Positions 1-34,876 of a DNA stretch of 34,876 nt are shown piece after piece. The stretch spans positions 1 through 34,876 of IMG/VR virus record IMGVR_UViG_3300037481_000168; one strand, 5' to 3'. Within the stretch, counting starts at the first letter, position 1; each line of letters starts with the position of its first letter. The notes beneath the pieces were generated by a model. It worked only from the letters and a program-made list of their open reading frames with translations, did not search any database and had not been told where the DNA came from. The translations under genes and the position numbers were made by a program. This DNA comes from a virus.

Positions 1-127
1 GCCCCGCAGCGTTCGATGTGCGTGAGCGACCCGACGCTGTAGAACTGGCTTGTGGTCGCGCCCCTGCAACGCGGACACGGGCAATCAGGTGCGTCCATCA
101 TCTGCTCCCGACTGATCGCGTAGTCGC
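1..127. repeat. Terminal direct repeat, left copy (contig overlap)
   Basis: Identical to 34750-34876 over 127 bases. A gene (the zinc-ribbon protein) reads straight through the join once one copy is removed. An exact length of 127 is a common maximum k-mer in short-read assemblers, so this is best read as proof that the contig is circular or circularly permuted, not as a biological terminal repeat. Confidence 0.95.
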
Positions 128-167
128 ATCGCGGGCAGAAGACGCACTTGTTTCGTGCTTCACTCAC
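1..167 (-). CDS. Zinc-ribbon protein, N-terminal part (continues at 34749 to 34686)
   Basis: Reads from GTG at 167 and leaves the window at base 1. With the 127-bp overlap removed it continues from 34749 to a TGA at 34686, giving 76 residues. Cysteines at 8, 11, 14, 29, 31 and 34, with further ones at 54 and 65, form CxxC-type pairs (CVFCPRC and CPCPRC), so it probably binds zinc and may contact nucleic acid or another protein. The GTG overlaps the stop of the upstream gene in a GTGA. The upstream gene's last codons supply the Shine-Dalgarno sequence. Function unknown; only the zinc-binding character is inferred. Confidence 0.8.
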   Translation of the reverse strand, partial: MSEARNKCVFCPRCDYAISREQMMDAPDCPCPRCRGATTSQFYSVGSLTHIERCG

Positions 168-421
168 GCGCCACCCCCTTCCTTCTGCGAAAAGCAGTTC
201 CAGCCGTTGCGTTCCGCGATCTGCTGCGGCGTCAGGGTGTCATAGAACCTAGTCTCGATCCGTGCAATCTCTGCACACGCATCGCGGAGCCACCGCCGCG
301 CATCCTCGCGCTGCTTGATCGCGGCGGCAAGTTCCCGCTCAAGTTTGCGCGCAAAGTCGGCGTCGTAGGGCATCCCGCCTTCGTCAACAAGCGCATCCGT
401 CCTCGGCGTGTCACTTTCCAT
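164..421 (-). CDS. Small DTPRTDA-type phage protein with coiled coil
   Basis: 85 residues. It begins MESDTPRTDA, an opening I associate with a widespread phage family of unknown function. The middle (DFARKLERELAAAIKQ) is a predicted coiled coil, and the protein ends QKEGGGA, coded by the recurrent linker. Start chosen at ATG 421, which overlaps the upstream gene by 11 bp and has AAGGAGG six bases upstream. The coil segment LAAAIKQRE is nearly repeated in the genes at 1048 and 1263. Function unknown. Confidence 0.75.
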   Translation of the reverse strand: MESDTPRTDALVDEGGMPYDADFARKLERELAAAIKQREDARRWLRDACAEIARIETRFYDTLTPQQIAERNGWNCFSQKEGGGA

Positions 422-755
422 CGCCGTCCTCCTTGTCGAGGATGACCTGTGGAACCTCAAGTTCCATCCGAATGATCTTCACAGAAGAGTACTGGCGATC
501 CTTCGGATCGGCTTCGGCGAACACGCGCTCGACCATCTCGGTAAGAGTCTCTGCGGTCGCCACCCTTGACGGCAGATGGTGCGTGTAACCCATCGAATCG
601 TTCTGAAGGATCACCATGTACAGGCGCGTCGTCGTCGTCGGGAAGCGCCGACCCGTCGCGTCGAAACGCGGCGTCTTGGGCGTCTCGACGACGATGGGCG
701 GCGGGACGATGCGAAGGAGCGGATTACCGAAAAGAAAGTTGTCGAGCCACTTCAT
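411..755 (-). CDS. Hypothetical 114-aa early protein
   Basis: Starts at ATG 755 in a TGATG arrangement with the stop of the upstream gene; a linker copy directly upstream supplies the Shine-Dalgarno region. The N-terminus (MKWLDNFLFGNPLLRIVPPP) is hydrophobic and proline-rich. The C-terminal half (TLTEMVERVFAEADPK, VKIIRMELEVPQVIL) looks like an alpha/beta domain. The end is acidic (DKEDGDGK), and its AAGGAGG serves the next gene. No family recognised. Confidence 0.7.
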   Translation of the reverse strand: MKWLDNFLFGNPLLRIVPPPIVVETPKTPRFDATGRRFPTTTTRLYMVILQNDSMGYTHHLPSRVATAETLTEMVERVFAEADPKDRQYSSVKIIRMELEVPQVILDKEDGDGK

Positions 756-1051
756 CACGCGCCACCCCCTTCCTTCTCGCACTTCTCGCAGCGCGGCTTC
801 AGGTTCTCTTCGGTCTGGTCTTCGAGGAACGCGACCCACCCAGAGTGCAGGTTGTTCGTCAGCGCCGCCCGCTGTCCGTACACCCATCCGATCTGCCTGT
901 GGGTGGGCTCCGCAACCGCAAGCGCGATGAATGGGTCGGGCTTCCGCGCGAAGAGCGGCACAGGCCACCACCACGGGACATGGCCGACCCACCATGCGCC
1001 TCCCTTGAACCACGGAAGGCACGGCAGCGTGCCTGTTCGGAAGCGGCTCAC
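755..1051 (-). CDS. Hypothetical 98-aa early protein, Trp-rich
   Basis: GTG start at 1051 overlaps the previous stop (GTGA). The N-terminal half is unusually rich in Trp, Pro and Gly (WFKGGAWWVGHVPWWWPVP), followed by a segment that could be a membrane-associated or compact hydrophobic domain. The end has a CEKCEK pair (two cysteines) before the linker-coded EGGGA. Unknown function. Confidence 0.7.
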   Translation of the reverse strand: MSRFRTGTLPCLPWFKGGAWWVGHVPWWWPVPLFARKPDPFIALAVAEPTHRQIGWVYGQRAALTNNLHSGWVAFLEDQTEENLKPRCEKCEKEGGGA

Positions 1052-1266
1052 GCGCCACCCCCTTCCTTCTCGCGCGGACTTGCCGCGTCCTTGATCCCGT
1101 CTAGAAGCGCGCGATACAACCGCCGCGCCTCGTCGCGCTGCTTGATCGCGGCGGCGAGGTCGGCGCGGAGGCTCGTGATGTCGTCGGCGGCCTCGTCAAT
1201 CAGAAAGCGAGGGTATCCATCTATGTGCGGACACCACCCTCTCAACCGTTGCACGATGTCACTCAC
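1048..1266 (-). CDS. Small coiled-coil early protein
   Basis: 72 residues from GTG 1266; a longer reading frame upstream overlaps other genes and is rejected. Begins MSDIVQRLRGW, an opening I associate with small phage proteins of unknown function, then has a helix with heptads (ADDITSLRADLAAAIKQRDEARRLY). Ends REKEGGGA. The coil LAAAIKQRDEARR is shared, in DNA and protein, with the genes at 164 and 1263, so the three look like relatives or share a duplicated segment. GTGA coupling on both sides. Confidence 0.75.
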   Translation of the reverse strand: MSDIVQRLRGWCPHIDGYPRFLIDEAADDITSLRADLAAAIKQRDEARRLYRALLDGIKDAASPREKEGGGA

Positions 1267-1514
1267 GCGCCACCCCCTTCCTTGAAGCAGTCCCAGCCGC
1301 GCTCGAAGGCGATTTCCTCTGCTTCTGTGTGGTAGCCGCGATGGGCGGCGGTCTTCTGGCACACCTCACGCCGCGCCTCGTCGCGCTGCTTCTCCATCGC
1401 GGCGAGTTCGGCGCGGAGGCGTGGGATCTCTTTGCGCGCCCACAATGACGCAGTATCGTCATTGAACGAAAGCATGTTCATGTAGACTGCCGCGTCGTTG
1501 GTGTCATCACTCAC
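1263..1514 (-). CDS. Small coiled-coil early protein, paralogue of neighbour
   Basis: 83 residues from GTG 1514 (MSDDTNDAAVYMNML). The middle (IPRLRAELAAMEKQRDEARRE) is a heptad coil related to the genes at 1048 and 164. The C-terminus has FERGWDCFKEGGGA; compare NGWNCFSQKEGGGA at the end of the gene at 164. That gives similarity in both coil and tail. Function unknown. Confidence 0.75.
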   Translation of the reverse strand: MSDDTNDAAVYMNMLSFNDDTASLWARKEIPRLRAELAAMEKQRDEARREVCQKTAAHRGYHTEAEEIAFERGWDCFKEGGGA

Positions 1515-1885
1515 GCGCCACCCCCTTGCTTCCGCATCGCGGCGAGCGTTGCGTTGGCTATACCTACGACATGGTTTGCGATGTCCTCTGGACGCACCCA
1601 ACCTTCGAGACTGCAAACGCCCGTCAGCGCCGCGCACACCAGCCGCTCGCGCAGGTCGCGGTCGCGGTCGGCGGGCGCGTGCTGATCTCTCCAGCGACCG
1701 CTCTGTAGTTCCAGCGTCTCTACTCGCTTTCGCAACGCTGCTCCCTCCGCGACGAGGGACAGATTCCCTTCCCGCAGCCCGTCCCGCTCCACGACGAGCG
1801 CGGTGAGGGCGGCGTGCTTTTCCGGCCAATAGCCGTTGTCGAGGTGGTAAAGCAAGCAGTCGATGTCGTTGTCGTGGTCACTCAC
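1511..1885 (-). CDS. Hypothetical 124-aa early protein with coiled coil
   Basis: GTG start at 1885, inside a linker copy (MSDHDNDIDCLLYHLDNGYW). Residues about 30-70 form a leucine-rich helix (LVVERDGLREGNLSLVAEGAALRK read in parts). The C-terminal third (ERLVCAALTGVCSLEGW, EDIANHVVGIANATLAAM) is helical. Ends KQGGGA. GTGA overlap at both ends. No family recognised. Confidence 0.72.
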   Translation of the reverse strand: MSDHDNDIDCLLYHLDNGYWPEKHAALTALVVERDGLREGNLSLVAEGAALRKRVETLELQSGRWRDQHAPADRDRDLRERLVCAALTGVCSLEGWVRPEDIANHVVGIANATLAAMRKQGGGA

Positions 1886-2340
1886 GCGCCACCCCCTTCG
1901 ATGTTGCGGAGTCGTTGATCGACTGCAACGAACGCCTGTTCGATGCGATCCATCCGCGCCTTCAGTTCCGCAATGTCGCTGCTTGTTTCGCCGCGCCACG
2001 CGCCAGCGAGATTGCGAATCTCTGCCGCGATTTCGGATACGTCGCAAGTCGTGGTCTTCTTCGCGACAGGCGCGGCGGTCGTTGAATTGTTCCATGACCG
2101 CATTCGTTCTGAAGCCTTGGCAATGTTCTTTGCTTTGCGCTCTTTTGCGTATGGCAAATACTTCAACTCGTACCACTCCAACACAGCAGCCCGGGAAGCA
2201 AGCGTGTGAGTCCCTTTCTTAAACGTCGGAAACTCTTGCGAACGGGCGGCTGTGTAGAAAACCACCTCGTTTACAGTGCGATCTGTGTTACGCATCCAAA
2301 CAAGGATGCTCTTGATTGTCATTAGTTCAGCAATGCTCAC
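1882..2340 (-). CDS. Hypothetical 152-aa early protein
   Basis: GTG start at 2340 (MSIAELMTIKSILVWMRN). The N-terminal 90 residues are basic and mixed (KYLPYAKERKAKNIAKASER), with possible DNA-binding character. The C-terminal part has heptads (SSDIAELKARMDRIEQAFVAVDQRLRNI) ending EGGGA. The leader carries a short stem-loop (2356-2370) related to those at 5072 and 5426. A large hairpin lies at the end of the gene upstream. Function not recognised. Confidence 0.7.
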   Translation of the reverse strand: MSIAELMTIKSILVWMRNTDRTVNEVVFYTAARSQEFPTFKKGTHTLASRAAVLEWYELKYLPYAKERKAKNIAKASERMRSWNNSTTAAPVAKKTTTCDVSEIAAEIRNLAGAWRGETSSDIAELKARMDRIEQAFVAVDQRLRNIEGGGA

Positions 2341-2745: not shown

Positions 2746-3267
2746 TTACTTGATGGAGATGCGGTTTCCGCGCTGCATGAGCGACGCGAAATCCAGTTGT
2801 TCGCCAGCGTCGAGACGCGAGCGAATCGCGTCCTTGTCAACGGTCACGACGGTTTCCGTTTTGACCGCCCACGCGGGAAGCTCTTCCGCGCCAACGCGCA
2901 CGTCGAGCGGAGCCTTGCCGCCGTTCTTTGCGAGCGACACGGTGTAGCGCGAGGTCTGCAACTTGCCCATTGACCGCAACTCCCACACGAAACGCAGCCG
3001 CTCGCGCAGCGCCTTCGCTGCGTTCTCGTCAATCTTCGCGCGGTCGTACAGCCTGTCTGCCTCTGCTTTGCGCACTGCCGCGCGGCACTCAATCTCCGTG
3101 ATAAGAGCGCAATAGTTGTCAACCTTGCCCGTGAGGTTCGTATCCAACTCTGCGAACCACGCATCCAACGTGCCTTCGGTTTCCGGGGTGATTTCGCCGC
3201 CGGACTCTGCGAGCAGTTCGTCAATGGCGGCCATGTCTTCGGTGATGTCAAGGAGTGTCTGTTTCAT
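2746..3267 (-). CDS. Siphovirus Gp157-family protein
   Basis: 173 residues, near the usual length of the family (PF05565, named from Streptococcus phage Sfi21 Gp157). N-terminal half acidic and helical (LLDITEDMAAIDELLAESGG). A central coil matches the family pattern (AALITE-type helix, RKAEADRLYDRAK, NAAKALRERLRFVWE). Then beta-rich SRYTVSLAKNGGKAPLDV and a C-terminal DKDAIRSRLDAGE. Family members sit with phage recombination genes, as here with a RecT-like gene; a link to phage resistance has been proposed for the founding member. ATG 3267 overlaps the previous stop in ATGA. Confidence 0.8.
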   Translation of the reverse strand: MKQTLLDITEDMAAIDELLAESGGEITPETEGTLDAWFAELDTNLTGKVDNYCALITEIECRAAVRKAEADRLYDRAKIDENAAKALRERLRFVWELRSMGKLQTSRYTVSLAKNGGKAPLDVRVGAEELPAWAVKTETVVTVDKDAIRSRLDAGEQLDFASLMQRGNRISIK

Positions 3268-3470
3268 TTCGCACCTTCTGTTGTCTTGAGGATGAACCGC
3301 AACGCGCGGATTGATTTAAGGACTCGCTGTGTATCGTTGTAGTGGCGCTTTTCTTCGTCTTCGCCCTGCCGCCTTGGCTCCGGATCATCACCCATGTAGT
3401 CGTGAAGGAGGCAAAGATCTTCTATGATTTCCACGACGAATTTCCGGGAAAGTTCGATGTCTTCGTTCAC
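3264..3470 (-). CDS. Hypothetical 68-aa early protein
   Basis: GTG 3470 overlaps the stop of the alanine-rich gene (GTGA), with GGGGAGG upstream. The much longer frame upstream is a low-complexity shadow of that gene. Sequence is acidic then basic (NEDIELSRKFVVEIIEDL, GEDEEKRHYNDTQRVLKSIRALRFILK); mostly helical. Translationally coupled to the Gp157 gene. No function recognised. Confidence 0.7.
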   Translation of the reverse strand: MNEDIELSRKFVVEIIEDLCLLHDYMGDDPEPRRQGEDEEKRHYNDTQRVLKSIRALRFILKTTEGAK

Positions 3471-4030
3471 GACTTCACCTCCCCGAGCATCCGCTGCAAC
3501 TCCTCGCGCTGCCACGCGCGTTCGGCATTCCACGCCGCATCCGCCGCAACCCACGCCGCATCCCGCGCCGCAGCCCGCGCCGCAGCCCGCGCCAAAGCAT
3601 CCGCCGCATCCGCCGCAGCCCGCGCCGCATCCGCCGCAGCCCGCGCCGCATCCGCCGCAGCCCACGCCGCAGCATCAGCCGCAGTCCACGCCGCAGCCGC
3701 AACCCGCGCCTCAGCATCTGCCGCAGCCCACGCCGCAGCATCAGCCGCAGTCCACGCCGCAGCCGCAACCCGCGCCGCAGCCGCCGCAGCCCGCGCCGCA
3801 GCATCTGCCGCATCCCACGCCGCAGCCGCCGCAGCCCACGCCGCATCTAGCGCCTCAGCCATCTCTTCGTCCGTCGCCTCCCCGCGCAGCCACCGCTCGC
3901 GCGTGTCGAGCACAGCAACGGAGCGCGGGTCGCGCATCAAGTGTTGGACGTGCCGCACACTGGCCAAGGCGAACTCATGGCGCTGCCGCTCAGTCAGGCG
4001 GTCGATCAGGGTCTCGATTGATTCACTCAT
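3467..4030 (-). CDS. Alanine-rich repeat protein, copy 1
   Basis: 187 residues from ATG 4030 (ATGA overlap). About 60 ordered residues (MSESIETLIDRLTERQRHEF, HVQHLMRDPRSVAVLDTRER, WLRGEATDEEM) are followed by about 110 residues of Ala with periodic Trp, Asp and Arg (AADAAW/ARAAA units). A short non-repetitive cap ends it (ERAWQREELQRMLGEVKS). The Ala tract should form long helices. Nearly the same head and cap occur in the next gene, so this is a tandem duplicate. I associate this layout with hypothetical phage and bacterial proteins; function unknown. Confidence 0.8.
   Translation of the reverse strand: MSESIETLIDRLTERQRHEFALASVRHVQHLMRDPRSVAVLDTRERWLRGEATDEEMAEALDAAWAAAAAAWDAADAAARAAAAAARVAAAAWTAADAAAWAAADAEARVAAAAWTAADAAAWAAADAARAAADAARAAADAADALARAAARAAARDAAWVAADAAWNAERAWQREELQRMLGEVKS
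3531..3850 (-). repeat. Imperfect GC-rich triplet array coding for Ala repeats (copy 1)
   Basis: Minus-strand GCGGC/GCGGATGC units repeated at irregular 6-, 15- and 33-bp periods inside gene 3467-4030. It also opens long low-complexity frames on both strands that are not genes. A likely site of replication slippage and unit-number change. Confidence 0.8.
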
Positions 4031-4587
4031 GCTGCACCTCCTTCCGTGAGCATCCGCTCCAACTCCTCGCTCTGCCACGCGCGTTCTGCATCCCGCGCCG
4101 CAGCCCACGCCGCATCCGCCGCAGCATCCGCCGCATCCGCCGCATCCGCCGCATCCGCCGCATCCGCCGCATCCCGCTCCGCAGCCCACGCATCCCGCTC
4201 CGCAGCCCACGCCGCAGCATCCGCCGCAGCATTTGCCGCAGCATCCGCCGCAGCCCACGCCGCAGCCTCCGCCGCCCACGCCGCAGCCCACGCCGCATCC
4301 CGCACCGCATCCGCCGCATCCCGCGCCGCATCCCGCGCCGCAGCCCACGCCGCAGCCCACGCCGCAGCATTTGCCGCAGCATCCGCCGCACACCGCGCCG
4401 CAGCCCACGCCGCATCTATCTCCTCTTCCGTCGCCTCCCCGCGCAGCCACCGCTCGCGCGTGTCGAGCGCAGCAACGGAGCGCGGGTCAGTCATTAGGTG
4501 CTGGACGCGCCGCGCACACGCCAAGGCGAACTCGTAGCGCTGGCGGTCGGTCAGGCGGTCGATCATGGTGTCGATTGATTCACTCAC
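4027..4587 (-). CDS. Alanine-rich repeat protein, copy 2
   Basis: 186 residues from GTG 4587. Head MSESIDTMIDRLTDRQRYEF, then VQHLMTDPRSVAALDTRER and WLRGEATEEEIDAAW, close to copy 1. The Ala tract is richer in DAADAA units. The cap reads ERAWQSEELERMLTEGGAA. The C-terminal EGGAA codons (GGAAGGAGGTGCAGCATGA) form a variant of the recurrent linker and the Shine-Dalgarno of copy 1. Start overlaps the previous stop (GTGA in a full linker copy). Function unknown. Confidence 0.8.
   Translation of the reverse strand: MSESIDTMIDRLTDRQRYEFALACARRVQHLMTDPRSVAALDTRERWLRGEATEEEIDAAWAAARCAADAAANAAAWAAAWAAARDAARDAADAVRDAAWAAAWAAEAAAWAAADAAANAAADAAAWAAERDAWAAERDAADAADAADAADAADAAADAAWAAARDAERAWQSEELERMLTEGGAA
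4090..4415 (-). repeat. Imperfect GC-rich triplet array coding for Ala repeats (copy 2)
   Basis: Includes a block of perfect 9-bp tandem units (GCGGATGCG, coding ADA) at about 4127-4170 and longer mixed units beyond. Lies inside gene 4027-4587. Confidence 0.8.
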
Positions 4588-4598
4588 GCGCCACCCCC
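4584..4598 (-). repeat. Recurrent stop/start linker, seventh copy
   Basis: The exact 15-mer GGGGGTGGCGCGTGA at the junction between genes 4584-4823 and 4027-4587, about 2.7 kb from the next copy. The sequence upstream of the 15-mer differs from the other copies. Confidence 0.9.
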
Positions 4599-4823
4599 TC
4601 GCGCGATTGCGCCGAGGTCGATGTCCTCAATGATGCGCTCGACTTGCGCCGCCATGCGCGGCGAGCCGAAACGCCCGACGTAGCAGCGCACGGGAATCCA
4701 ATTTGCTGTGCTGGTGTGTCCGTGATTTGCGTCGTCTACGGCTTGGCACATGTACGACTTGACGATGGCCGGAAGGCTCGACTCTGTGATGGTGGAGATT
4801 GCGACGGTTGCGGCGTGTCTCAT
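4584..4823 (-). CDS. Hypothetical 79-aa early protein
   Basis: ATG 4823 overlaps the previous stop (ATGA) and is preceded by a GGCGGTGCAGC linker variant. Sequence MRHAATVAISTITESSLPAI, then VKSYMCQAVDDANHG and a basic segment (IPVRCYVGRFGSPRMAAQVER), ending EDIDLGAIARGGGA. Two cysteines, no clear motif. No family recognised. Confidence 0.65.
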   Translation of the reverse strand: MRHAATVAISTITESSLPAIVKSYMCQAVDDANHGHTSTANWIPVRCYVGRFGSPRMAAQVERIIEDIDLGAIARGGGA

Positions 4824-5056
4824 GCTGCACCGCCTTCCGTGCGAAGCGCTTGCTTGATCCGGCGTTCCGCTTGGCGAATTTTCGCCAGCGTCCACGCGCG
4901 ACCGCAGTTTTCAGAATTGATGGCAACGCGCGAAAGTCGATCTTGTGCCACAACGATTGCCGTTGTGAGTTCTCGCGTCCAAGGGCGCTGTGTGTTTCGC
5001 GCTGCGCGAATCGTGGTGCTGAGATTCATTTCCGATGGTGTGCTGATGCTGCTCAT
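4820..5056 (-). CDS. Hypothetical basic 78-aa early protein
   Basis: ATG 5056 with GGAGCAGCC directly upstream. Helical and basic (RAARNTQRPWTRELTTAIVV, RLSRVAINSENCGRAWTLAK, IRQAERRIKQALRTEGGAA). Ends in the EGGAA linker variant. Its leader is a near-exact copy of the leader of the gene upstream (5150-5410). Unknown function. Confidence 0.65.
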   Translation of the reverse strand: MSSISTPSEMNLSTTIRAARNTQRPWTRELTTAIVVAQDRLSRVAINSENCGRAWTLAKIRQAERRIKQALRTEGGAA

Positions 5057-6323: not shown

Positions 6324-6329
6324 GTCTTC

Positions 6330-6361
6330 CGAAAACAAACACACACACAAAGTGTGTGTGT
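6330..6361 (-). terminator. CA/TG hairpin followed by T-rich tract
   Basis: ACACACACAC-AAA-GTGTGTGTGT: 10-bp stem with a 3-base loop. On the minus strand it is followed by TTTGTTTTC, so it could terminate or attenuate leftward transcription between the HTH gene and gene 5618-6265. The dinucleotide repeat is prone to length change. Confidence 0.45.
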
Positions 6362-6430
6362 GTCTTTCATCTCACAGCGCGTTGACACCGAATGGACAAG
6401 CGAACAGTGAAATGACCACTTGTTGCGGTA

Positions 6431-6471
6431 GGGGGGTTTTAGGGGGGAAGGGCTGCGCTTGTCAAGGGGGG
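6431..6471 (+). other. Four G-runs, G-quadruplex-capable
   Basis: Plus-strand G-runs of 6, 6, 3 and 6 bases (6431-6436, 6442-6447, 6450-6452, 6466-6471). The loops are TTTTA, AA and a 13-base stretch. Located in the main regulatory gap; could affect replication or transcription. Confidence 0.45.
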
Positions 6472-6520
6472 CAGTTGGTCGGATTTCTCAGAATTCTAGA
6501 AATGGCAGAGATTCCACCCC

Positions 6521-6556
6521 GGGAAAGACAACGCCGCCGGAAACAATCCGGCGGCG
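6521..6556 (-). terminator. Rho-independent terminator after HTH gene
   Basis: Perfect 10-bp stem (CGCCGCCGGA and complement, 6532-6556) with a 5-base loop, followed on the minus strand by TTGTCTTTCCC. It begins 20 bases after the stop of gene 6577-6939 and closes the first early operon. Confidence 0.75.
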
Positions 6557-6576
6557 CTGCATCCTGTTCGTCGCGT

Positions 6577-6939
6577 TCACAGATCGGCGGCTCGCATCGA
6601 AACGATGAGCCGACAAGCGCGGCGCACAAGTTCAAACCGCTCCAACTCGCAAACGGCTTCCCATTCGATCTCGCGCCGTACGACGGTGCGCACGGAACAG
6701 CCGAGCGCTGCCGCCATGCGCTCGCGCCGGGGTCTGAGGTGACCCGGCATCAGGTCGAGGACAATGCCAACCTCAACCAGCCTACGCACCTCCGGCGCAA
6801 GCGATTCATCGTCGCGGATGATCCGCGCGACACGCAGACACTCAATCAGTCGATTCGGTCGGAAAATTCGCGCATCCTCTTGCGCGATACCGAGTTGTGC
6901 GCGGATCGATTGCGATCCGGGTTCGTGGATTTTATCCAT
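6577..6939 (-). CDS. HTH DNA-binding protein
   Basis: 120 residues. ATG 6939 lies 9 bases after GGAGG inside the end of the RecT-like gene (8-bp overlap), which decides this start over a longer one. The C-terminal region has a helix-turn-helix pattern (RRERMAAALGCSVRTVVRRE, about residues 70-90) followed by a helical tail. The N-terminal region is helical (IFRPNRLIECLRVARIIRDD). Likely a phage regulator or replication accessory protein; it sits last before a terminator. The palindromes at 6306 and 7959 are possible targets, which is inference only. Confidence 0.7.
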   Translation of the reverse strand: MDKIHEPGSQSIRAQLGIAQEDARIFRPNRLIECLRVARIIRDDESLAPEVRRLVEVGIVLDLMPGHLRPRRERMAAALGCSVRTVVRREIEWEAVCELERFELVRRACRLIVSMRAADL

Positions 6940-7825
6940 GACCGATGTCCTCCAGTTTGACAATGACCCTCTTGTTGTCGCTGCGCGTCGTGAACGTCGC
7001 GCGAACGGTCGCGTTGAATGCGAGCGATGCCTCTAGGTCGTGCGCAACCTTGGCGTCCTTGATGGCAAACGGCCTGTCCTCCCCAGCCACGTCAACCCGG
7101 AACCAATCCGAGTTGCCGACGCGGGAGAGTTTCGTCGCCTTCGGGGTCAACGTCACAACGTCTGGCGGCTCGACCGGCACGGCATCCGTGCCGCCGTCGA
7201 TTGGGATTTCACCCGGAGGGGTTGCCACAGGGGCTAGCAGCCGTTCCGTGTCTGCACGTCGCTCCTCGCGCGTAAGCGCCTTGGCGGGCTGCGGCGCTGA
7301 CTTTGCAGGCGGATCGTCGGGAATCTCCTTTTCTCCGTGCGCCTCAACGTAGACGGGCGCTGCGCCCAGTGCATCCGGGCAGTGCGTCTTGTACCCGGCG
7401 GAAATGCACCGAGCGAACAGCATTGCGCGCGGGTACTTGCGCCAGTTGTCGCCGCCAAGTCCCGCGCGTTTCGCGTCCTCCATGCTGAACCGAGATTCAC
7501 CGATCCGGTTCGCGCCAGAGTAGAACTCAATGACGCACTCAACGTCAGTGTTGCAGGACACCCGGTAGTCGTACCGTCCGCTTCGCTTGATCGCCGCAGC
7601 CATCAGGTTCGCGGCAAGAACCGCCTTGCCCTTGATGATGTGCAGGCCGGACATTGCGTCGAAGTCCGTCAAACCAAGACCTCGACCGATGATGATTTTC
7701 GTGGCCGCCTGCGCCTCGCTCTGAATGTCGGGGAACATCCCCGACTGTCGAAAGATCGCGGCTACGGCCATGGGGTCGAGTTGAACGGGCGCGACCGCGC
7801 CACCAGTGCGGATGATCTCATTCAT
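6932..7825 (-). CDS. recT: RecT-family single-strand annealing protein
   Basis: 297 residues from ATG 7825 (MNEIIRTGG), which overlaps the stop of the 32-aa gene by 8 bp; a start 11 codons earlier is less likely. The core matches RecT-type annealases common in phages: MAVAAIFRQSGMFPDI, IIIGRGLGLTDFDAMSGLHI, KGKAVLAANLMAAAIKR, FSMEDAKRAGL, DNWRKYPRAMLFARCISAGY. A Pro/Ala linker (about 190-215) leads to a C-terminal beta-rich domain (SDWFRVDVAGEDRPFAIKDA) that may bind DNA or a partner. It anneals complementary single strands in phage recombination or replication. No exonuclease partner is visible nearby. Confidence 0.75.
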   Translation of the reverse strand: MNEIIRTGGAVAPVQLDPMAVAAIFRQSGMFPDIQSEAQAATKIIIGRGLGLTDFDAMSGLHIIKGKAVLAANLMAAAIKRSGRYDYRVSCNTDVECVIEFYSGANRIGESRFSMEDAKRAGLGGDNWRKYPRAMLFARCISAGYKTHCPDALGAAPVYVEAHGEKEIPDDPPAKSAPQPAKALTREERRADTERLLAPVATPPGEIPIDGGTDAVPVEPPDVVTLTPKATKLSRVGNSDWFRVDVAGEDRPFAIKDAKVAHDLEASLAFNATVRATFTTRSDNKRVIVKLEDIGHG

Positions 7826-7916
7826 CGGACGGAGCCTTTCCCAAGAGAATTGCGACAAGAACGGGTAGCCCGATCACGGCGACTACCACCAACGGCGTAA
7901 GGTCATACTCTGGCAT
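7818..7916 (-). CDS. Small single-span membrane peptide
   Basis: 32 residues, below usual ORF cut-offs. ATG 7916 with AGGAGT eight bases upstream. MPEYDLT, then a hydrophobic span LVVVAVIGLPVLVAILLG, then KAPSDE. The stop overlaps the start of the RecT-like gene (GAATGAATGA), so the pair is translationally coupled. First gene of the leftward early block. A holin-like or exclusion role is possible but unsupported. Confidence 0.65.
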   Translation of the reverse strand: MPEYDLTPLVVVAVIGLPVLVAILLGKAPSDE

Positions 7917-8056
7917 TGTGCGTACTCCTGTTTGGCCTCGCGTCATGCGAAACCGTGTCGATGACAACTTGTCATCGCGTGAGAATGTATCGCCATTCCC
8001 GCGCCACGCCTTGAGAATTTCCGCAGATTCCACAAAAACGAAGGTAATCTTCCCAC
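7917..8056. promoter_or_regulatory. Divergent promoter region
   Basis: 140 bp between the leftward early block and the only rightward gene. It holds the perfect inverted repeat at 7959-7977 and GAATTTCCGCAGATTCC (8013-8029), which resembles a motif at 5500-5517. I could not pick -10/-35 boxes confidently on either strand. Confidence 0.6.
7959..7977. promoter_or_regulatory. Perfect 9-bp inverted repeat, operator candidate
   Basis: CGATGACAACTTGTCATCG: two perfect 9-bp arms about one base, centred between the divergent genes starting at 7916 and 8057. Size and symmetry fit a dimeric HTH regulator. Confidence 0.65.
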
Positions 8057-8299
8057 GTGAGCCAGCCCGTACCGGCGAAACTCAAGGCACGGCGAGTCCG
8101 CGACCACGTTGAAACTACGCTGGCGCTCATCGTCTCCATGCGCGTACGGCGCGACGCGGCGCGATGCCGCTCCATCGAAGAGATTTCGTGGGAGTCGCAC
8201 GACTTGTACACGTTGGCGCTCGACACGTGCGAGGACGAAGAAGTGCGCGACCTAGTGGCACAGGCGCGAGCCGCGATCCTTACTGCTCTCACGCAATGA
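8057..8299 (+). CDS. Lone plus-strand 80-aa protein
   Basis: GTG 8057, with GAAGG about 12 bases upstream. Basic N-terminus (PVPAKLKARRVRDHVETTLA, MRVRRDAARC) and acidic helical C-terminus (DTCEDEEVRDLVAQARAAIL). Third-position GC is high in this frame. It is the only gene read rightward; it diverges from the early block and overlaps the end of gene 8289-9677 by 11 bp tail to tail. By position it could be a regulator of the early block, but no DNA-binding motif is clear. A minus-strand frame in the same place is weaker. Confidence 0.55.
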   Translation: MSQPVPAKLKARRVRDHVETTLALIVSMRVRRDAARCRSIEEISWESHDLYTLALDTCEDEEVRDLVAQARAAILTALTQ

Positions 8300-9677
8300 G
8301 CGTATCGGAAATCGTTTCGGTGTTGGAGTAGTTCTGCGGCAGCGACAAGCCTTTGCCGTACATATCGAACAGCCGATCAAACGCTCGCACGAACTCGCCC
8401 TCGCCGTTGTTGGTGAAGTTGAAGCGCCCGTTGTCATCTACCCGCCAATCGGTCGAACCCGCAATCATTCCGATGGCTTGACCGCCGGGAGCAACTGGCA
8501 TCAACTCCGCAAACACGACTTCATCAATGTACACGTCGGCATTTGCGATTGCCGTCGTACTCTCAATGTGGAAGTACGTCGTAAGCGGCACGTTTCGCGG
8601 GGTGCGCAGCGTGAGCGTATAGAGAGCCATTGACGTACTAAACGCTGAGACATCCCACGCACCGTTGAAGTTTCCGCCGTCGATGATGTTACCGCTGGCA
8701 TCCTTCACTGAGAGCCGGATGTTGCCTGTTGCCGTCGCCACCTTTCGCGCGGCGAACGCAATCACGTACGGGCGGTCGGGCGACAAGCGCGAGAACGTAC
8801 CCGCCGCGCTGCCAATCTCTTGTCGGATGTTGAACGTCGCAGCAGTGCCAGACGCAAGTCGTATGCTGCTCGCGCCGCGCCAGATGTTCGATGCGCCCGT
8901 CTCCGTGAGGAACTGCGTACCAGCCGTTCCCGTGACCACCGACCACCGAGACGCGAGGTTTGACGACTGCTCCTCAAAGTCGGAGTTGGTCAAGAGATTC
9001 TGCATCGGTCGGCCAGCATCAACGCTCGCGCAGATGGTGTTGATGCGCGTCGTGGTTCCGCTACCGGCGGGGAATCGGTAATCCAGCGGCGGGTACGCGG
9101 GCTGTCCGCGCACCTCAAACGTTTCCGACCCGGGCAGTACGCTGCCGTTTGCCGCGTCCTGAACGCATCGCGCTTCCATCTGCTCCGTGCGCACGTTCGG
9201 CCAATCTGCCGTGGAGCCGAGCAACACGTTTGGCGCTTCAAAAAGGTACACAAACTGGCCGTTGCCGATGTTGGATGCAGCGTAGGACGCGCTGCTCTTG
9301 CTGACGGTTGTACCGTTCACGGTTTCAACGTCGGCATCCATTTGGCGGATAAGCCATACCAGCGCGTCGGATAGCGTCTTCGCCCGCATGACGTTTGTTG
9401 CGCCGGACGTGTTCGCTTCGGCAAAAGTCATCTCTACCAGCGTCCGCTCTGCGGAAGCGCGTACGTCATTGAGTACACCGCCCGCCTCTTGGATGCGCGT
9501 CTCGATGTTCCCCGCGAGTACGTCAATCATCCAAGCATCGGTGTTGCTGTACTCATCCTGCACTTTGGCAAGCAAGGTGCGCAAGTTGTTCTGATGCGTT
9601 CGTACTTGATCCATGAACTCAACGAGAACGCCAAGCCGCGTGAAGAGTCCGTTCGTGCTGTCGTAGGTCAGTGCCAT
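8289..9677 (-). CDS. Tail-tip or tail-associated protein with carbohydrate-binding-like region
   Basis: 462 residues. Opens MALTYDSTNGLFTRLGVLVE, which I associate with phage and environmental proteins. The first 120 residues are helical. The middle (NLLTNSDFEEQSSNLASRWS, RPYVIAFAARKV, VYIDEVVFAELM) has the layout of a jelly-roll carbohydrate-binding module: NSDFE opening, aromatic strand, and an IDEVVF-type strand. ATG 9677 overlaps the previous stop by one base (TAATG). Last gene of the late block; probably part of the tail tip or a host-surface contact. Confidence 0.6.
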   Translation of the reverse strand: MALTYDSTNGLFTRLGVLVEFMDQVRTHQNNLRTLLAKVQDEYSNTDAWMIDVLAGNIETRIQEAGGVLNDVRASAERTLVEMTFAEANTSGATNVMRAKTLSDALVWLIRQMDADVETVNGTTVSKSSASYAASNIGNGQFVYLFEAPNVLLGSTADWPNVRTEQMEARCVQDAANGSVLPGSETFEVRGQPAYPPLDYRFPAGSGTTTRINTICASVDAGRPMQNLLTNSDFEEQSSNLASRWSVVTGTAGTQFLTETGASNIWRGASSIRLASGTAATFNIRQEIGSAAGTFSRLSPDRPYVIAFAARKVATATGNIRLSVKDASGNIIDGGNFNGAWDVSAFSTSMALYTLTLRTPRNVPLTTYFHIESTTAIANADVYIDEVVFAELMPVAPGGQAIGMIAGSTDWRVDDNGRFNFTNNGEGEFVRAFDRLFDMYGKGLSLPQNYSNTETISDTLIA

Positions 9678-9973
9678 TAGTTGCCGTCCTTGCTTGGCTT
9701 ATCGGTGAACGGAAGCGCCGCGTTCAATGCGGCGCGACGCTTCGCGCATCCGCAGTCTCCGCCTGTGACCGCGTTCACCGCTGCGGCGATTCCGCTTGCC
9801 GTGGTGATCGCGTGTACGACGTCGCCAGCGCCGCGCGGAGGATTCATGTAGTCAGCGCAGCCAATGCAAGCAGATTCGTTTGCTTTGAAATGCTTTGGGT
9901 GCAAACAGATGCGGTGCATCCATGCGCACTTAGGAGAAGATGATTCGGGCTGTGCCTGTAAAGACGTACTCAT
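9677..9973 (-). CDS. Small Cys/His-rich tail-region protein
   Basis: 98 residues from ATG 9973, chosen so that the motif CAWMHRICLHPKHF stays in the protein; it overlaps the upstream gene by 44 bp. The Cys/His set (C-x3-H-x2-C-x-H, then CIGC) suggests a zinc site in residues 18-45. A second cluster (GGDCGCAKRR) follows a small hydrophobic helix (VVHAITTASGIAAAVNAVTG). ATG 9919 is an alternative start that loses the first cysteine. Function unknown; context says tail. Confidence 0.55.
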   Translation of the reverse strand: MSTSLQAQPESSSPKCAWMHRICLHPKHFKANESACIGCADYMNPPRGAGDVVHAITTASGIAAAVNAVTGGDCGCAKRRAALNAALPFTDKPSKDGN

Positions 9974-10739
9974 TTGCGCCGTCGCTTTCGTCGCATAGTG
10001 GAGCAATAAAAGGTAAAGACCTAGTAACCGAACCAAACGGCGTTTCATATGAGTACGAAACCGAAGCACCCATAGAAAAATCCGGTTGACCAAAGTTGCA
10101 CGGCCTACATCGGCACGGTGTCGTAGCGCACTGGTCAAGTAATATGGAAGCAGCCAATCCGCATTGCGCTGGATATTGCTGCATAGGTTCATCAAAAGAC
10201 CGAATTGTATACAATCCAGCAAAAGAGCCAGAAATGCTGGCAGTTATGCTTATTGGATTGACTAAAGGCTGTCCTCCTCCTCCTCCTCCAAAACCACCAG
10301 AAGGGCATTCTCCTTCTACAGTCACAGGCGGGCAAACTCCACAACTAACGACGCCGAAGCATTCGCCTTCACCGTCCACAGTCTCCGTTATGTCAACTGA
10401 AAGTCCGCACCCACCTTCAGGGTCATAAAACCCATCTTTCAAATTTTCAACAGATGATACGTTAGCCATTCCTTGAACGCGATAAAACGGCCACGTTGGG
10501 AATGTTGCATCGTCGGGATCGGCAAGAACTCCAGTTAGGCCAAACGACAAATTCCGCTGAGTTGTTGAAACCCAACCACACTCTTGCGATTCATTGAACC
10601 GAGCGCGAAATTGCGCCGTAACAATCACCGAAACCGTTTGCGGCGGCGGCCACCCAAAGCAAGCAGCAAACAACTGCGCACACGGTGTCGATGGAATCGG
10701 AATGCAGCAACAGCGAATCAGCGCCGCTTCAAGGCTCAT
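9930..10739 (-). CDS. Cysteine-rich tail protein, AT-richer than surroundings
   Basis: 269 residues with 17 cysteines, including CCC at 10-12 and CATTPCRCRPC near 205. A glycine tract (GGFGGGGGGQP) splits two beta-rich halves; the C-terminal half looks like repeated strands (YSYETPFGSVTRSL). Start ATG 10739 overlaps the previous stop in ATGA. Base composition is visibly more AT-rich than the neighbours. Probably an extracellular, disulphide-stabilised virion part acquired by transfer; no family recognised. Confidence 0.6.
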   Translation of the reverse strand: MSLEAALIRCCCIPIPSTPCAQLFAACFGWPPPQTVSVIVTAQFRARFNESQECGWVSTTQRNLSFGLTGVLADPDDATFPTWPFYRVQGMANVSSVENLKDGFYDPEGGCGLSVDITETVDGEGECFGVVSCGVCPPVTVEGECPSGGFGGGGGGQPLVNPISITASISGSFAGLYTIRSFDEPMQQYPAQCGLAASILLDQCATTPCRCRPCNFGQPDFSMGASVSYSYETPFGSVTRSLPFIAPLCDESDGANEYVFTGTARIIFS

Positions 10740-30848: not shown

Positions 30849-31095
30849 CGGGTTCCTCCACGAACGAAGGCGGTACGCAGTACCAACCCTCCGGAATCAA
30901 CACGCGCTCCTCTGACAACCGCCACGACTTGGTTTCCGGATCGACCACGTACACTCGCGCTCGCGCGTCGCTGCCAATCCGAATCGGCGCAGACTCAGGA
31001 ACCAATATCGTTCTTGTGCAGCCACTCGCGTACGCGAGAACCAGCGCGGCGAAGAGTACTGCTATCAGAAGGCGAATCAGCGGCAGTGTGTCCAC
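30838..31095 (-). CDS. Lipoprotein-like small protein, possible outer spanin
   Basis: 85 residues from GTG 31095 (assumed; the true start may differ). Hydrophobic signal LLIAVLFAALVLAYASGC with a lipobox-like end, then TRTILVPESAPIRIGSDARA, RVYVVDPETKSWRLSEE and LIPEGWYCVPPSF. Small lipoproteins with LPEGWY-type ends occur beside phage lysis genes. Its 5-prime part is nested in another frame of gene 30995-31159, an Rz/Rz1-like layout. Confidence 0.6.
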   Translation of the reverse strand: MDTLPLIRLLIAVLFAALVLAYASGCTRTILVPESAPIRIGSDARARVYVVDPETKSWRLSEERVLIPEGWYCVPPSFVEEPDER

Positions 31096-31159
31096 GTCGC
31101 GCCAACTTGTCGAGCCATGCGAAGATGGTTTGAACGATCCCTGAGATGATGTCTCGCAT
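30995..31159 (-). CDS. Small helical protein overlapping the lipoprotein gene
   Basis: 54 residues from ATG 31159. MRDIISGIVQTIFAWLDKLA, RRGHTAADSPSDSSTLRRAG, SRVREWLHKNDIGS. Amphipathic N-terminus and a basic helical end (RRAGxRxREWL). It overlaps the lipoprotein gene by about 100 bp in a different frame. Shine-Dalgarno weak. Likely part of the lysis cluster; function unproven. Confidence 0.6.
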   Translation of the reverse strand: MRDIISGIVQTIFAWLDKLARRGHTAADSPSDSSTLRRAGSRVREWLHKNDIGS

Positions 31160-31201
31160 CGTTGCATCCGTACCAGTGTTAGCCGGGTCATGGCGTGTAC
31201 C

Positions 31202-31402
31202 TCACTTCGCGCCAGCGTCTTCGCTCGACACGTTGTTGTCACGGGCGAAGATGAGGCCGAAGCCCGCCACGATTGCCGCCACCAACGCAGCGTAGTCAGG
31301 CTCAGTTGTCGGGTTGCCGTCAAACAGCGCCTGAAGCATTGAACCCGCAGCAATGAGAATTGCGCCAACTCCGGCAATTGTGGTCTTGTGTGAACCCTTC
31401 AT
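31202..31402 (-). CDS. Holin-like protein with two hydrophobic spans
   Basis: 66 residues from ATG 31402, seven bases after AGGAG; an earlier ATG at 31438 has a weaker site. MKGSHKTTIAGVGAILIAAG, SMLQALFDGNPTTEPDYAAL, VAAIVAGFGLIFARDNNVSS. Two spans about residues 9-27 and 40-57, short loops, charged end. The FARDNxVSSE ending is frequent in small phage membrane proteins of lysis regions. Holin assignment is by size and context. Confidence 0.6.
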   Translation of the reverse strand: MKGSHKTTIAGVGAILIAAGSMLQALFDGNPTTEPDYAALVAAIVAGFGLIFARDNNVSSEDAGAK

Positions 31403-31434
31403 CGTGTCGCTCCTGTTGTCGTAGTCCGCGCCAA

Positions 31435-31728
31435 TCATCGCCCGTGGAGTTGCTCCATCCGGCGTTCGATAGAATCAAGCCGACGCTTGATGTCTTCGAC
31501 GGCGCTCTTGTCCTTCGCATCTGCGACCGCCGCAGACGCTTGCGCACTGGCTAAATCGGTGACGGTGTTGGACAGCGCGTGCATATCCGCTCGCGCCCGC
31601 TCCAGTTGCTCGCCCTTGACACCGAGCGAATAGATAACGCCGCCGAATCCAACGATCATGGACAAAATCTGTCCGATGCCGATTGCAGCGGTGATGGTCT
31701 TCCGTCGCTTGTCTTCCGTCTCTGCCAT
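31435..31728 (-). CDS. Membrane-anchored coiled-coil protein (holin/i-spanin-like)
   Basis: 97 residues from ATG 31728 with GAGG four bases upstream; a GTG 13 codons earlier is possible. KRRKTITAAIG then a span GQILSMIVGFGGVIYSLGV (about 15-33). A long coil follows (RARADMHALSNTVTDLASAQ, VEDIKRRLDSIERRMEQLH). One span plus coil fits i-spanin or XhlA-like membrane proteins. Next to the holin-like and lipoprotein genes. Confidence 0.6.
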   Translation of the reverse strand: MAETEDKRRKTITAAIGIGQILSMIVGFGGVIYSLGVKGEQLERARADMHALSNTVTDLASAQASAAVADAKDKSAVEDIKRRLDSIERRMEQLHGR

Positions 31729-31792
31729 GCCGCCTCTTTCATCGTCGCGCGTTGTATCCGGGTTCACCCCCCGCTTTTACTACTACCCGCAT

Positions 31793-32086
31793 TCAGTCTT
31801 CGTCTTCGTCCTCTTCGGCCTCTTCCTTTTCCGTATCGTCCATCTCCTCAACCTTTGACGCAACCCATCGCATCAAGCCGGTGACAGTCAACCCGTTACC
31901 CAAGGCCACTTGGGAAATCTCCGTCTTGCGGCGGCGCTGCTTCGTCCAAACCACAAGCACGGCATCTGCGCCTACGACTTCGATAGCCTCACGGCAAAGC
32001 CTTGCCATCTCTGCGGCTTCGATGTCTTCCGCCCTTGGCGGCGACACTTTGCGATCTTTCTTCGGTGGCTTGGCTTCGTCGCTCAT
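31793..32086 (-). CDS. Hypothetical 97-aa protein with acidic tail
   Basis: ATG 32086 (ATGA, GGAGG upstream). MSDEAKPPKKDRKVSPPRAE, AARLC-like helix (AAEMARLCREAIEVVGADAV), VVWTKQRRRKTEISQVALGN, then DDTEKEEAEEDEDED. Basic middle and very acidic end; possibly a DNA- or partner-binding protein. Unknown function. Confidence 0.65.
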   Translation of the reverse strand: MSDEAKPPKKDRKVSPPRAEDIEAAEMARLCREAIEVVGADAVLVVWTKQRRRKTEISQVALGNGLTVTGLMRWVASKVEEMDDTEKEEAEEDEDED

Positions 32087-32967
32087 TTCGCGGCCTCCAA
32101 AGAAAAGGCCAAGCGGTAATTCTTTGACGTGCGATTGGGGCTTCGGGGTGTGACAATCGGCCACACGCGAAGCCACCACGCGCCGAGGCTCTGCGGCATG
32201 AATCCCTTCTCCACAGCCCATCCGCTGCCGGAGGTTGTGTCCTCCTTGTAGCCCGGGCTGCGTATGTGGATCTGCTCGTCACGGCGCACCGTGTCAAGGT
32301 GCGAGAGCCGCATACGCGCGATGCTCAGGTAATACTCCGTATGGGTGTGGCCAGCCCAAACGATATCCGCGTCGGGGTAGGCAATCGCCATGCGATTGGT
32401 TTGGATTACGCCGCGCGTGACGGGCGCTGAGCCGCCGAAGCCGTGGTGGTATGCAATGACCACGGAGCCAACGTCGCGCCCGTGTAGCCGACCGTGGATG
32501 CGGATGTAGCCTTGGTATTTGCCGAGATTGAGGAACGGCGCAGACGGCTTGAGACGCGCGTACAACTGCTGCGCAAGGTCGAAATCGTTGTGCTTGGCTA
32601 CAGCGGTTTCGTGGTTGCCGGGGGACATGTGCAACCAGCGCGGCGCAAAACGCTCGTATCGCGCGGTCGCAACGTCAATCAATCGGTTCATGTATGAACC
32701 GTGCTGGTACTCCGGGCGCAAATGCTCCCGGTCGGCTCGCTTGTCGTATCGCCCATTCATGCAATCGAAGAGGTCGCCAGCGTCGCAGATGAGCGCGTCG
32801 CGCTTCTCTGCTTCCATGAGATGCCGCATCTCCATTTCTTGATCGGCGGCGGTTGAGTCGTGGTGCGCGTCGGATCGGAGAAGAAAGTGTTTCGCCTCGC
32901 TCGCGCTGTCAAAGTCGATTTCGCACACAGTCACGGCGGGCGTGTGGTTGCCGGGTCTTGCATCCAT
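32083..32967 (-). CDS. Calcineurin-like metallophosphoesterase
   Basis: 294 residues, ATG 32967 with GGGGGAAAC upstream. Metal-binding motifs in order: SDAHHD (D33, H35), GDLFD (D65), GNHE (117-120), YHHG (near 174) and GHTHTEY (206-212). Probably acts on nucleic acid or nucleotides, as phage members of this fold do. First gene of the late block after a strong terminator; it is not an endolysin. Substrate unknown. Confidence 0.85.
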   Translation of the reverse strand: MDARPGNHTPAVTVCEIDFDSASEAKHFLLRSDAHHDSTAADQEMEMRHLMEAEKRDALICDAGDLFDCMNGRYDKRADREHLRPEYQHGSYMNRLIDVATARYERFAPRWLHMSPGNHETAVAKHNDFDLAQQLYARLKPSAPFLNLGKYQGYIRIHGRLHGRDVGSVVIAYHHGFGGSAPVTRGVIQTNRMAIAYPDADIVWAGHTHTEYYLSIARMRLSHLDTVRRDEQIHIRSPGYKEDTTSGSGWAVEKGFMPQSLGAWWLRVWPIVTPRSPNRTSKNYRLAFSLEAAK

Positions 32968-34115: not shown

Positions 34116-34474
34116 GGAATCTCCTTGATGTGCAGTTCCACGCGCGGGGATACTTCGTCGAGCATGACGAGCGCTGGTAGGTGCGTCATGTCCGAATCGT
34201 TCTTGATGAGTCCCGAATCTTGCAGGCCGTCAAAGTACGATTTCAGCCACGCGATAAGGTTGTCCCGGTCGCGCTTGCGCCTTGTCTCAAAGAAGAACCG
34301 CGCCTCGCACGACACACACTCCATCGGCGGTAGTTTCTTGATGTGCGCTTCTCCTGCGTACTTTGCCGTAAGTCGGGCAAAGCGCTTGGCCTTTGCCACG
34401 TCGCGCCAGTGAAAGCGAGCGTTTGGCATGAGCGACCGCGACGGGAGCGGTAGCGTGATCACATATTCTCGCAT
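34103..34474 (-). CDS. rusA: RusA-family Holliday junction resolvase
   Basis: 123 residues, ATG 34474, near the RusA length of about 120. LPLPSRSLMPNARFHWRDVA, HIKKLPPMECVSCEARFFFE, then the catalytic region RKRDRDNLIAWLKSYFDGLQ with D69 and D71, and DSGLIKNDSDMTHL with D93/D95, fitting the three catalytic Asp of RusA (70, 72, 91). Cuts Holliday junctions during phage recombination and before packaging. It lies in the same block as the RecT-like gene. Confidence 0.88.
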   Translation of the reverse strand: MREYVITLPLPSRSLMPNARFHWRDVAKAKRFARLTAKYAGEAHIKKLPPMECVSCEARFFFETRRKRDRDNLIAWLKSYFDGLQDSGLIKNDSDMTHLPALVMLDEVSPRVELHIKEIPCAS

Positions 34475-34689
34475 TGGCGCTCCTTTGCTATCAACCGAAG
34501 GTCAAGCATCATTGACACGACTTGCGGCGCATCAACTACCCGTGGGGATTCAAGCGTTTCTGACTTGTCGCCAACGTGAAATTCGACGGTTACTTCGTTC
34601 GGTTCAATCGAATACATGGTGGAGATTCGGTCGAGCGGAAACGCCGTGGGGAATCCGTCGCGTCCTATTCCTGTGAGCCAGTTCGTCAC
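34459..34689 (-). CDS. Hypothetical 76-aa early protein
   Basis: GTG 34689 overlaps the zinc-ribbon stop (GTGA). MTNWLTGIGRDGFPTAFPLD, RISTMYSIEPNEVTVEFHVG, DKSETLESPRVVDAPQVVSM, then a helical end. Beta-rich centre. It overlaps the RusA start by 16 bp. Function unknown. Confidence 0.65.
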   Translation of the reverse strand: MTNWLTGIGRDGFPTAFPLDRISTMYSIEPNEVTVEFHVGDKSETLESPRVVDAPQVVSMMLDLRLIAKERQCENM

Positions 34690-34876
34690 GCGTCACCCTC
34701 TTCCTTTGTAACCAACGGAGGGCATCCCTTGATCTCTCCACGTATCCACGCCCCGCAGCGTTCGATGTGCGTGAGCGACCCGACGCTGTAGAACTGGCTT
34801 GTGGTCGCGCCCCTGCAACGCGGACACGGGCAATCAGGTGCGTCCATCATCTGCTCCCGACTGATCGCGTAGTCGC
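34686..34876 (-). CDS. Zinc-ribbon protein, C-terminal part (starts at 167 across the join)
   Basis: Same gene as 1-167; the first 40 bases lie only at the window's left end, and 34750-34876 repeats 1-127. The C-terminal part includes HIERCGAWIRGEIKGC and ends TKEEGDA. Its last codons (GGAAGAGGGTGACGCGTGA) are a degenerate copy of the recurrent linker and give the Shine-Dalgarno of the next gene. Confidence 0.8.
   Translation of the reverse strand, partial: DYAISREQMMDAPDCPCPRCRGATTSQFYSVGSLTHIERCGAWIRGEIKGCPPLVTKEEGDA
34750..34876. repeat. Terminal direct repeat, right copy
   Basis: Exact copy of 1-127; shows that the contig closes on itself. Confidence 0.95.

Follow-up and report, generated by a model that had tools for sequence, protein, structure and literature searches.

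A repeated stop/start linker in a phage early operon

We analyzed a 34,876-nucleotide sequence from an uncultured phage, positions 1 to 34,876 of IMG/VR record IMGVR_UViG_3300037481_000168 (the whole of this stretch is referred to as the window), whose early region is a run of small minus-strand genes joined by copies of a short stop/start sequence that we call linker L1. The window carries an exact direct repeat of 127 bp at its two ends, indicating that it is a closed circular sequence of 34,749 bp and not a fragment. Read along the minus strand, the array starts with F28, F66, two F2 genes, F67, F6 and the gene at 1882–2322, and continues with three F1 genes, MSRF, F68, another F1 gene, a 74-aa open reading frame (ORF) and F7, where F-numbers denote gene families (Table 1). 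All junctions from 1882 through to 34686 are L1 or an L1 variant, except for the F68-F1 junction, which is a second linker type, L2. The small array genes had almost no matches in PHROG and Pfam, and no sigma-70 promoter-like sites were found in the array.

The core of L1, GGGGGTGGCGCGTGA, is 15 bp long. We found seven exact matches in the window, all on the minus strand, at positions 164, 755, 1048, 1263, 1511, 1882 and 4584; these are the six junctions, plus a seventh at 4584, that had been described in the initial annotation. Four copies extend upstream to AAGGAAGGGGGTGGCGCGTGA, with AAGGAA in front of the core, and two have ~26 bp in common, as had also been reported (6 bp and about 25 bp, respectively). 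The reversed-pattern control for the 15-mer gave 0 matches in the window. With up to three mismatches allowed, there were 10 matches, compared with 2.5 ± 1.4 in shuffled sequence, and none of 100 shuffles reached 10; the proposed count against shuffled sequence therefore favored a genuine repeat. Chance or composition as a source of the L1 copies was ruled out by the shuffles and the reversed-pattern control.

In frame, L1 reads GGG GGT GGC GCG TGA, which encodes a GGGA-stop at the 3' end of the small upstream gene. The GTG start of the next gene overlaps this TGA by 4 bp, and GGGGG or GGAGG lies ~6 nt before the start, which is ordinary Shine-Dalgarno (SD) spacing, such that stop, SD and start all fall within 15 bp. 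Each copy thus has the fixed arrangement of SD, last codons, stop and next start that had been claimed for it. At the copy at 755, an in-frame ATG directly follows the GTG. Three further sites had been interpreted as degenerate, older copies, and this interpretation needs revision. Since the genome is circular, the copy at 34686 belongs to the array as its next junction and is no remote relic: the ORF that follows the linker at 164 begins VSEARNKCVFCPRC, spans the contig ends and finishes with GAGGGTGACGCGTGA at 34686. The sites at 4027 and 4820, which conform to GGxGGTGCAGCATGA, are related junctions in the same operon.

To set L1 against translational constraint, we used a position matrix of 73 other 4-bp stop/start overlaps from this genome and six related genomes. 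The probability of the 15-mer under this matrix is 1.7e-6 per junction. Other coupled junctions in the same genome perform the same task with many different sequences. Moreover, given codon usage, the probability of the exact L1 codons is 0.0045 per gene even if the GGGA-stop tail is taken as given, so the explanation by codon bias alone that had been named as a possible refutation did not hold. Together, these values indicate that neither SD function nor codon bias accounts for seven identical copies, and SD/overlap constraint or codon bias was ruled out as the sole cause.

Table 1. Coordinates of array genes, joints and other features in the window
Feature	Position	Strand	Basis or comment
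Terminal direct repeat	1..127 with 34750-34876	.	exact identity
74-aa cassette ORF (VSEARNKC...KEEGDA)	1..167, continuing 34749-34686	-	several Cys pairs, from sequence reading
F1-family gene (MESDTPRTDA...GWNCFSQKEGGGA)	164..421	-	family assignment
Cassette F68	411..755	-	88% identity with G012 over 367 bp, from L1 to L2 position
MSRF cassette	755..1051	-	homologues L285-L289 have other native C-termini in place of linker tail
F1-family gene	1048..1266	-	family assignment
F1-family gene	1263..1514	-	family assignment; structure model
F1-family gene	1511..1885	-	family assignment
Gene without family label, first of linker array	1882..2322	-	
Gam-like / Sipho_Gp157 protein (F6), framework gene	2746..3267	-	PHROG and Pfam searches
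F2 gene, Ala-rich, phrog_18326	4027..4587	-	at linkers in relatives: five different following genes/families
F66 gene	4584..4823	-	family assignment
L1 copy	164..178	-	exact match; end of F1 gene 164-421, start of ORF crossing contig ends
L1 copy	755..769	-	exact match; between MSRF gene and F68
L1 copy	1048..1062	-	exact match; between F1 gene and MSRF gene
L1 copy	1263..1277	-	exact match; between two F1 genes
L1 copy	1511..1525	-	exact match; between two F1 genes
L1 copy	1882..1896	-	exact match; end of gene 1882-2322, start of F1 gene
L1 copy	4584..4598	-	exact match; between F66 and F2
Related junction GGAGGTGCAGCATGA	4027..4041	-	between two F2 genes
Related junction GGCGGTGCAGCATGA	4820..4834	-	between F28 and F66
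Linker variant GAGGGTGACGCGTGA	34686..34700	-	next array junction across circle, before F7 (34459-34689)
Second linker type L2, AAGGAGGACGGCGATGGAAAGTGACA (..DGK-stop / MESD.., 11-bp overlap)	409..434	-	repeated sequence
In-frame hinge, F1 gene (AAIKQREDA)	299..328	-	sequence comparison
In-frame hinge, F1 gene (AAIKQRDEA)	1126..1155	-	sequence comparison
In-frame hinge, F1 gene (AMEKQRDEA)	1374..1403	-	sequence comparison
RecT-like single-strand annealing protein	6932..7858	-	phrog_561, 5.6e-16
DNA repair exonuclease-like protein	32083..32967	-	phrog_7339, 1e-14

Homology breakpoints and gene exchange at L1

We compared the window with other viral contigs and stretches from IMG/VR, which are labeled with G- and L-numbers. 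GAA followed by the 15-mer was found in 15 stretches, the 15-mer without this requirement in 118, and GGAGGT variants add further matches. Many of the single 15-mer matches are probably due to chance or to unrelated conserved genes (e.g., the U1, U2, U10 and U11 clusters), and contigs of this kind were left out of the counts of array members. Whole-record searches found several L1 copies each in G001, G002, G004–G009 and G012, and more than 12 viral contigs other than the window have this linker between different gene pairs. The F66/F2 pair joined at 4584 recurs in G007 with the GGAGGT form of the linker.

The window terminase is shared by G001 and G007 (80–83% identity) and is not shared by G002, G004, G006, G009 or G012. 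The DNA polymerase A gene of G004 differs from that of G009 and G002; G004 has a PD-(D/E)XK exonuclease near the array, and G009 a DnaB-like helicase. G003, G011 and G012 have in common a primase-like AAA gene and also their terminase family, which, as typed in G003, differs from that of the window. Typing by terminase, polymerase and primase therefore places the array in at least four unrelated phage types. Among sequenced prokaryote genomes (257 billion bases) we found 31 single matches to a 17-mer, compared with ~30 expected by chance, which thus did not point to a host or prophage. In cultured phages, the early block had no match at the nucleotide level and an F1 gene none at the protein level, and the window terminase and RecT had only distant relatives.

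Anchored flank comparison revealed changes of partner at the linker. An F2 gene end upstream of the linker is followed by six different downstream clusters, two of which are F2 starts, a GWNCF gene end is followed by three different downstream sequences, and several downstream genes have different upstream genes. The gene end at linker 164 leads to different downstream genes in L276 and L017, and the gene after linker 1048, MSRF, has another upstream gene in L017. When 41 linker junctions were classified by gene family, they comprised 36 distinct pairs. High-scoring segment pairs (HSPs) between contigs repeatedly start or end at the linker edges, and the search for gene gain or loss with breakpoints in the 15-mer that the initial annotation had recommended was thus positive among these relatives: the same genes have other neighbors, and homology stops at the linker.

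The gene F74, which is 201 bp long, is 97% identical over 218 bp between G001 and G004, two contigs that lack each other's main genes. The match begins at AAGGAA, 6 bp ahead of the upstream linker, and stops at the final base of the downstream linker, and the sequences outside it are not similar; a cassette bounded by linkers has been shared recently between unrelated phages. This single-gene transfer and the 36 junction types among 41 support the earlier suggestion of a cassette array. From the upstream linker onward, the MSRF sequences of G008 and the window are 91% identical. In the window, MSRF ends with EGGGA at the linker, whereas five homologues end otherwise and have no 15-mer (e.g., ..KCGKECGG in L285), indicating that the linker is not the native end of MSRF but was acquired.

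We tested the position of breakpoints using 106 distinct HSP endpoints in arrays, with the interiors of F2 repeats removed. Linkers accounted for 36 endpoints, compared with 6.4 expected (5.6-fold; binomial probability 5e-18 under the assumption of independent endpoints, which holds only in part). Other coupled junctions were enriched 1.8-fold within the array and 3.0-fold outside it. Breakpoints are therefore drawn to gene borders generally, and to linkers more so. Homology that reaches a junction crosses L1 in only 12 of 107 cases, as compared with 103 of 237 for other 4-bp overlaps and 128 of 178 for other close junctions.

Two further joints in the array

L2, AAGGRGRANNNCRATGGAAAGTGACA (..GK-stop / MESD), is also present in G004 (two copies), G007, G008, G011, L293 and L294. 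F1 genes are mosaics with a common plan of N-module, hinge (RAELAAxxKQRDEA), C-module and linker, and the hinge is the position at which long F1 matches break. G011 and G004 are 98% identical over ~290 bp that begin at the hinge of one gene, include L2 and end at the hinge of the following gene. G003 and G011 are identical for hundreds of bases downstream of the hinge and differ in the N-module upstream of it. These alignments indicate that the array exchanges at two joints beyond L1, namely L2 and the in-frame hinge. The structure model of the F1 protein encoded at 1263–1514 has one long helix (residues 4–58, moderate confidence) and a disordered linker-coded tail. The hinge lies within the predicted helix, so an in-frame swap at this position need not break the fold.

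One recombinant was found in L294, at 2233–2740, where the N-module of one G004 F1 gene is followed by the C-module of the next G004 F1 gene; the sequence continues with a linker variant and then a downstream start like that of G003 and G011.

A candidate mechanism and alternative explanations

We consider it likely that the early operon is a cassette array with interchangeable joints (L1, L2 and the hinge), and that exchange is most likely made by the phage RecT. Under this model, small gene cassettes stand in series, and L1 would give the upstream gene a short Gly-rich tail and stop, and the downstream gene an SD and overlapping GTG. Because L1 is identical between unrelated genes and common to unrelated phages, exchange within it can replace a neighbor. 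Single-stranded ends would anneal at shared joints, and strand exchange or annealing within L1 would swap the neighboring gene while frames, stop, start and coupling stay intact; L2 and the in-frame coiled-coil hinge of F1 genes would act likewise. We infer that linker identity guides recombination, that RecT performs it and that the stop-start coupling is used in vivo. The RecT-like annealase noted in the initial annotation is indeed encoded by the phage, as are an exonuclease and a Gam-like protein (Table 1). Selection must also be at work, since recombinants formed at joints are those that keep expression.

Several observations weigh against this model. Its main weakness is the length of the joint, since a core of 15 bp, or 26 bp with the flank, is short for homologous recombination. 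No recombination event was seen directly, the evidence coming from contig comparison. Phage mosaics break at gene borders anyway, as reflected in the 3.0-fold enrichment at coupled junctions outside the array, and identical linkers pull the ends of alignments, which are not independent of one another, towards themselves. Relatives of the window RecT were found in G007, G010, G059, G019, G021, G025 and G035 but not in the array contigs G002, G004, G006 and G009 or in the short contigs, with other annealase families not searched. Lastly, the 15-mer is missing from most sister phages (terminases 66–87% identical): 7 of 40 records match with up to two mismatches, many of the records being partial. 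Some sisters have looser linkers such as AAGGAGGGGCAGCGATGA. One of them, L253 (G019), contains about ten F1 genes in succession at 6328–9998, with linkers in the style of AAGGAGGGGCAGCGATGA and variants thereof. From the linker style of G019, separate lineages may have their own joint sequence.

Function alone could keep the linker identical, as an SD/coupling element or a site bound by a phage or host factor, with selection removing illegitimate recombinants joined elsewhere. An SD and an overlapping start are indeed present in the linker, breakpoints are also enriched (1.8- to 3.0-fold) at other coupled junctions, and cluster K mycobacteriophages have a repeated SD-containing 13-mer (PMC3203893). 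However, the same genome performs the same task with many other junction sequences; GGGGGTG is no better an SD than GGAGGTG, yet is copied exactly; and neither the Gly-Gly-Gly-Ala tail nor the GCGC spacer contributes to an SD. Homology in cassette swaps reaches the very edge of the linker, and hinge exchanges fall away from gene borders. We therefore regard function alone as unlikely. If one gene had been duplicated in tandem together with its 3' end and the copies had then diverged, the linkers would be the conserved ends of paralogues. This fits the four F1 and two F2 genes of the window array, the F1 tails in common (such as GWDCFKEGGGA) and the tandem F1 runs of G019, and duplication could have produced some of the F1 and F2 copies. 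As a general account it is improbable and is largely refuted for non-F1 genes, because the linker also ends or starts MSRF, F68, F74, F73, F66, F16 and F7, the linker-bounded cassette is 97% identical in two phages with non-matching flanks, and the tail is absent from MSRF homologues.

Every contig is metagenomic, raising the question of chimeric assembly at short repeats. This is very improbable: all seven copies lie within a single contig, circularized by a 127-bp overlap, the contigs come from ~11 metagenomes (by name), with the same junction pair in three (G002, G006 and G009), and a repeat of 15–26 bp is much shorter than a read, such that assemblers should bridge the linker. Integron arrays consist of small exchangeable genes in series that have a 3' element in common, and the same holds for the cassette-like units of the window, as would be expected if a site-specific recombinase worked at the linker. 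Unlike the integron element, the linker is coding and provides the start of the next gene, and two other joint sequences also exchange. We saw no attC-like paired inverted arms on reading the 15-mer and its flanks, no dedicated attC search having been made. A site-specific recombinase is thus extremely unlikely. None of the selected window ORFs that were scanned was an integrase.

The cassette array with interchangeable joints resembles known systems only in part. Short conserved boundary sequences at module borders have been proposed as points of homologous exchange in lambdoid phages (Susskind and Botstein, 1978; Clark et al., 2001; both as cited in PMC3029335), and most mosaic borders are without a boundary sequence (PMC3029335). 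Like these boundaries, L1 is a short border sequence kept between phages with non-homologous modules on one side; unlike them, one coding stop/SD/start sequence is repeated seven to eight times per operon and across unrelated phage types. Cluster K mycobacteriophages carry start-associated sequences (SAS), well-conserved repeats of 13 bp that have an SD core and stand directly ahead of the starts of non-structural genes in 11–19 copies per genome (Pope et al., 2011, PMC3203893). Their consensus, GGGATAGGAGCCC, lies 3–7 bp before mostly ATG starts, sometimes containing the stop of the upstream gene, and a role in translation or regulation has been proposed (PMC3203893). L1 is similarly a repeated SD-containing element at non-structural gene starts in one orientation, but GGGGGTGGCGCGTGA does not match the SAS consensus, the sequences being unrelated, and L1 includes stop and start and has gene-swap breakpoints. 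Rad52-like phage annealases generate mosaics from diverged sequences without the need for RecA (De Paepe et al., 2014, PMC3945230). The window genome likewise encodes a RecT/Redbeta-type annealase; in that relaxed recombination, homologies flank modules irregularly, whereas here the homology is a built-in repeated joint.

No paper matching repeated stop/start linkers or microhomology joints in phages was found in our searches of the open-licence literature, and the combination of a serial coding stop/SD/start element, its sharing across unrelated phages and breakpoints at its edges was likewise not encountered there. It bears on an old question, whether mosaicism arises by random joining and selection or by homology at built-in boundaries. 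Because the boundary here is explicit, with up to eight repeats in one operon and across phage types, its role is directly testable with translation kept. The phage seems to own a plug-and-play gene array, which, if the model is correct, would be a route for phages to trade small early genes without breaking operon expression. A broader version, to which we give slightly less than even chances, is that several unrelated phages, perhaps of one host, have in L1, L2 and the hinge a common assembly code by which annealing would swap genes or half-genes with expression kept, making it a counterpart of the integron without a site-specific recombinase.

We made two additional observations, on RecT and on the F2 genes. 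The RecT of G007 (30906–31883) matches the window RecT in two pieces (query 11–212 and 213–308), with ~93 bp of open frame, an in-frame insertion, between them. The F2 genes at 3467–4587 form a tandem pair with very Ala-rich (AADAAWAAA) repeat regions, one of which genes matches phrog_18326, and F2 is a frequent partner at linkers in other phages.

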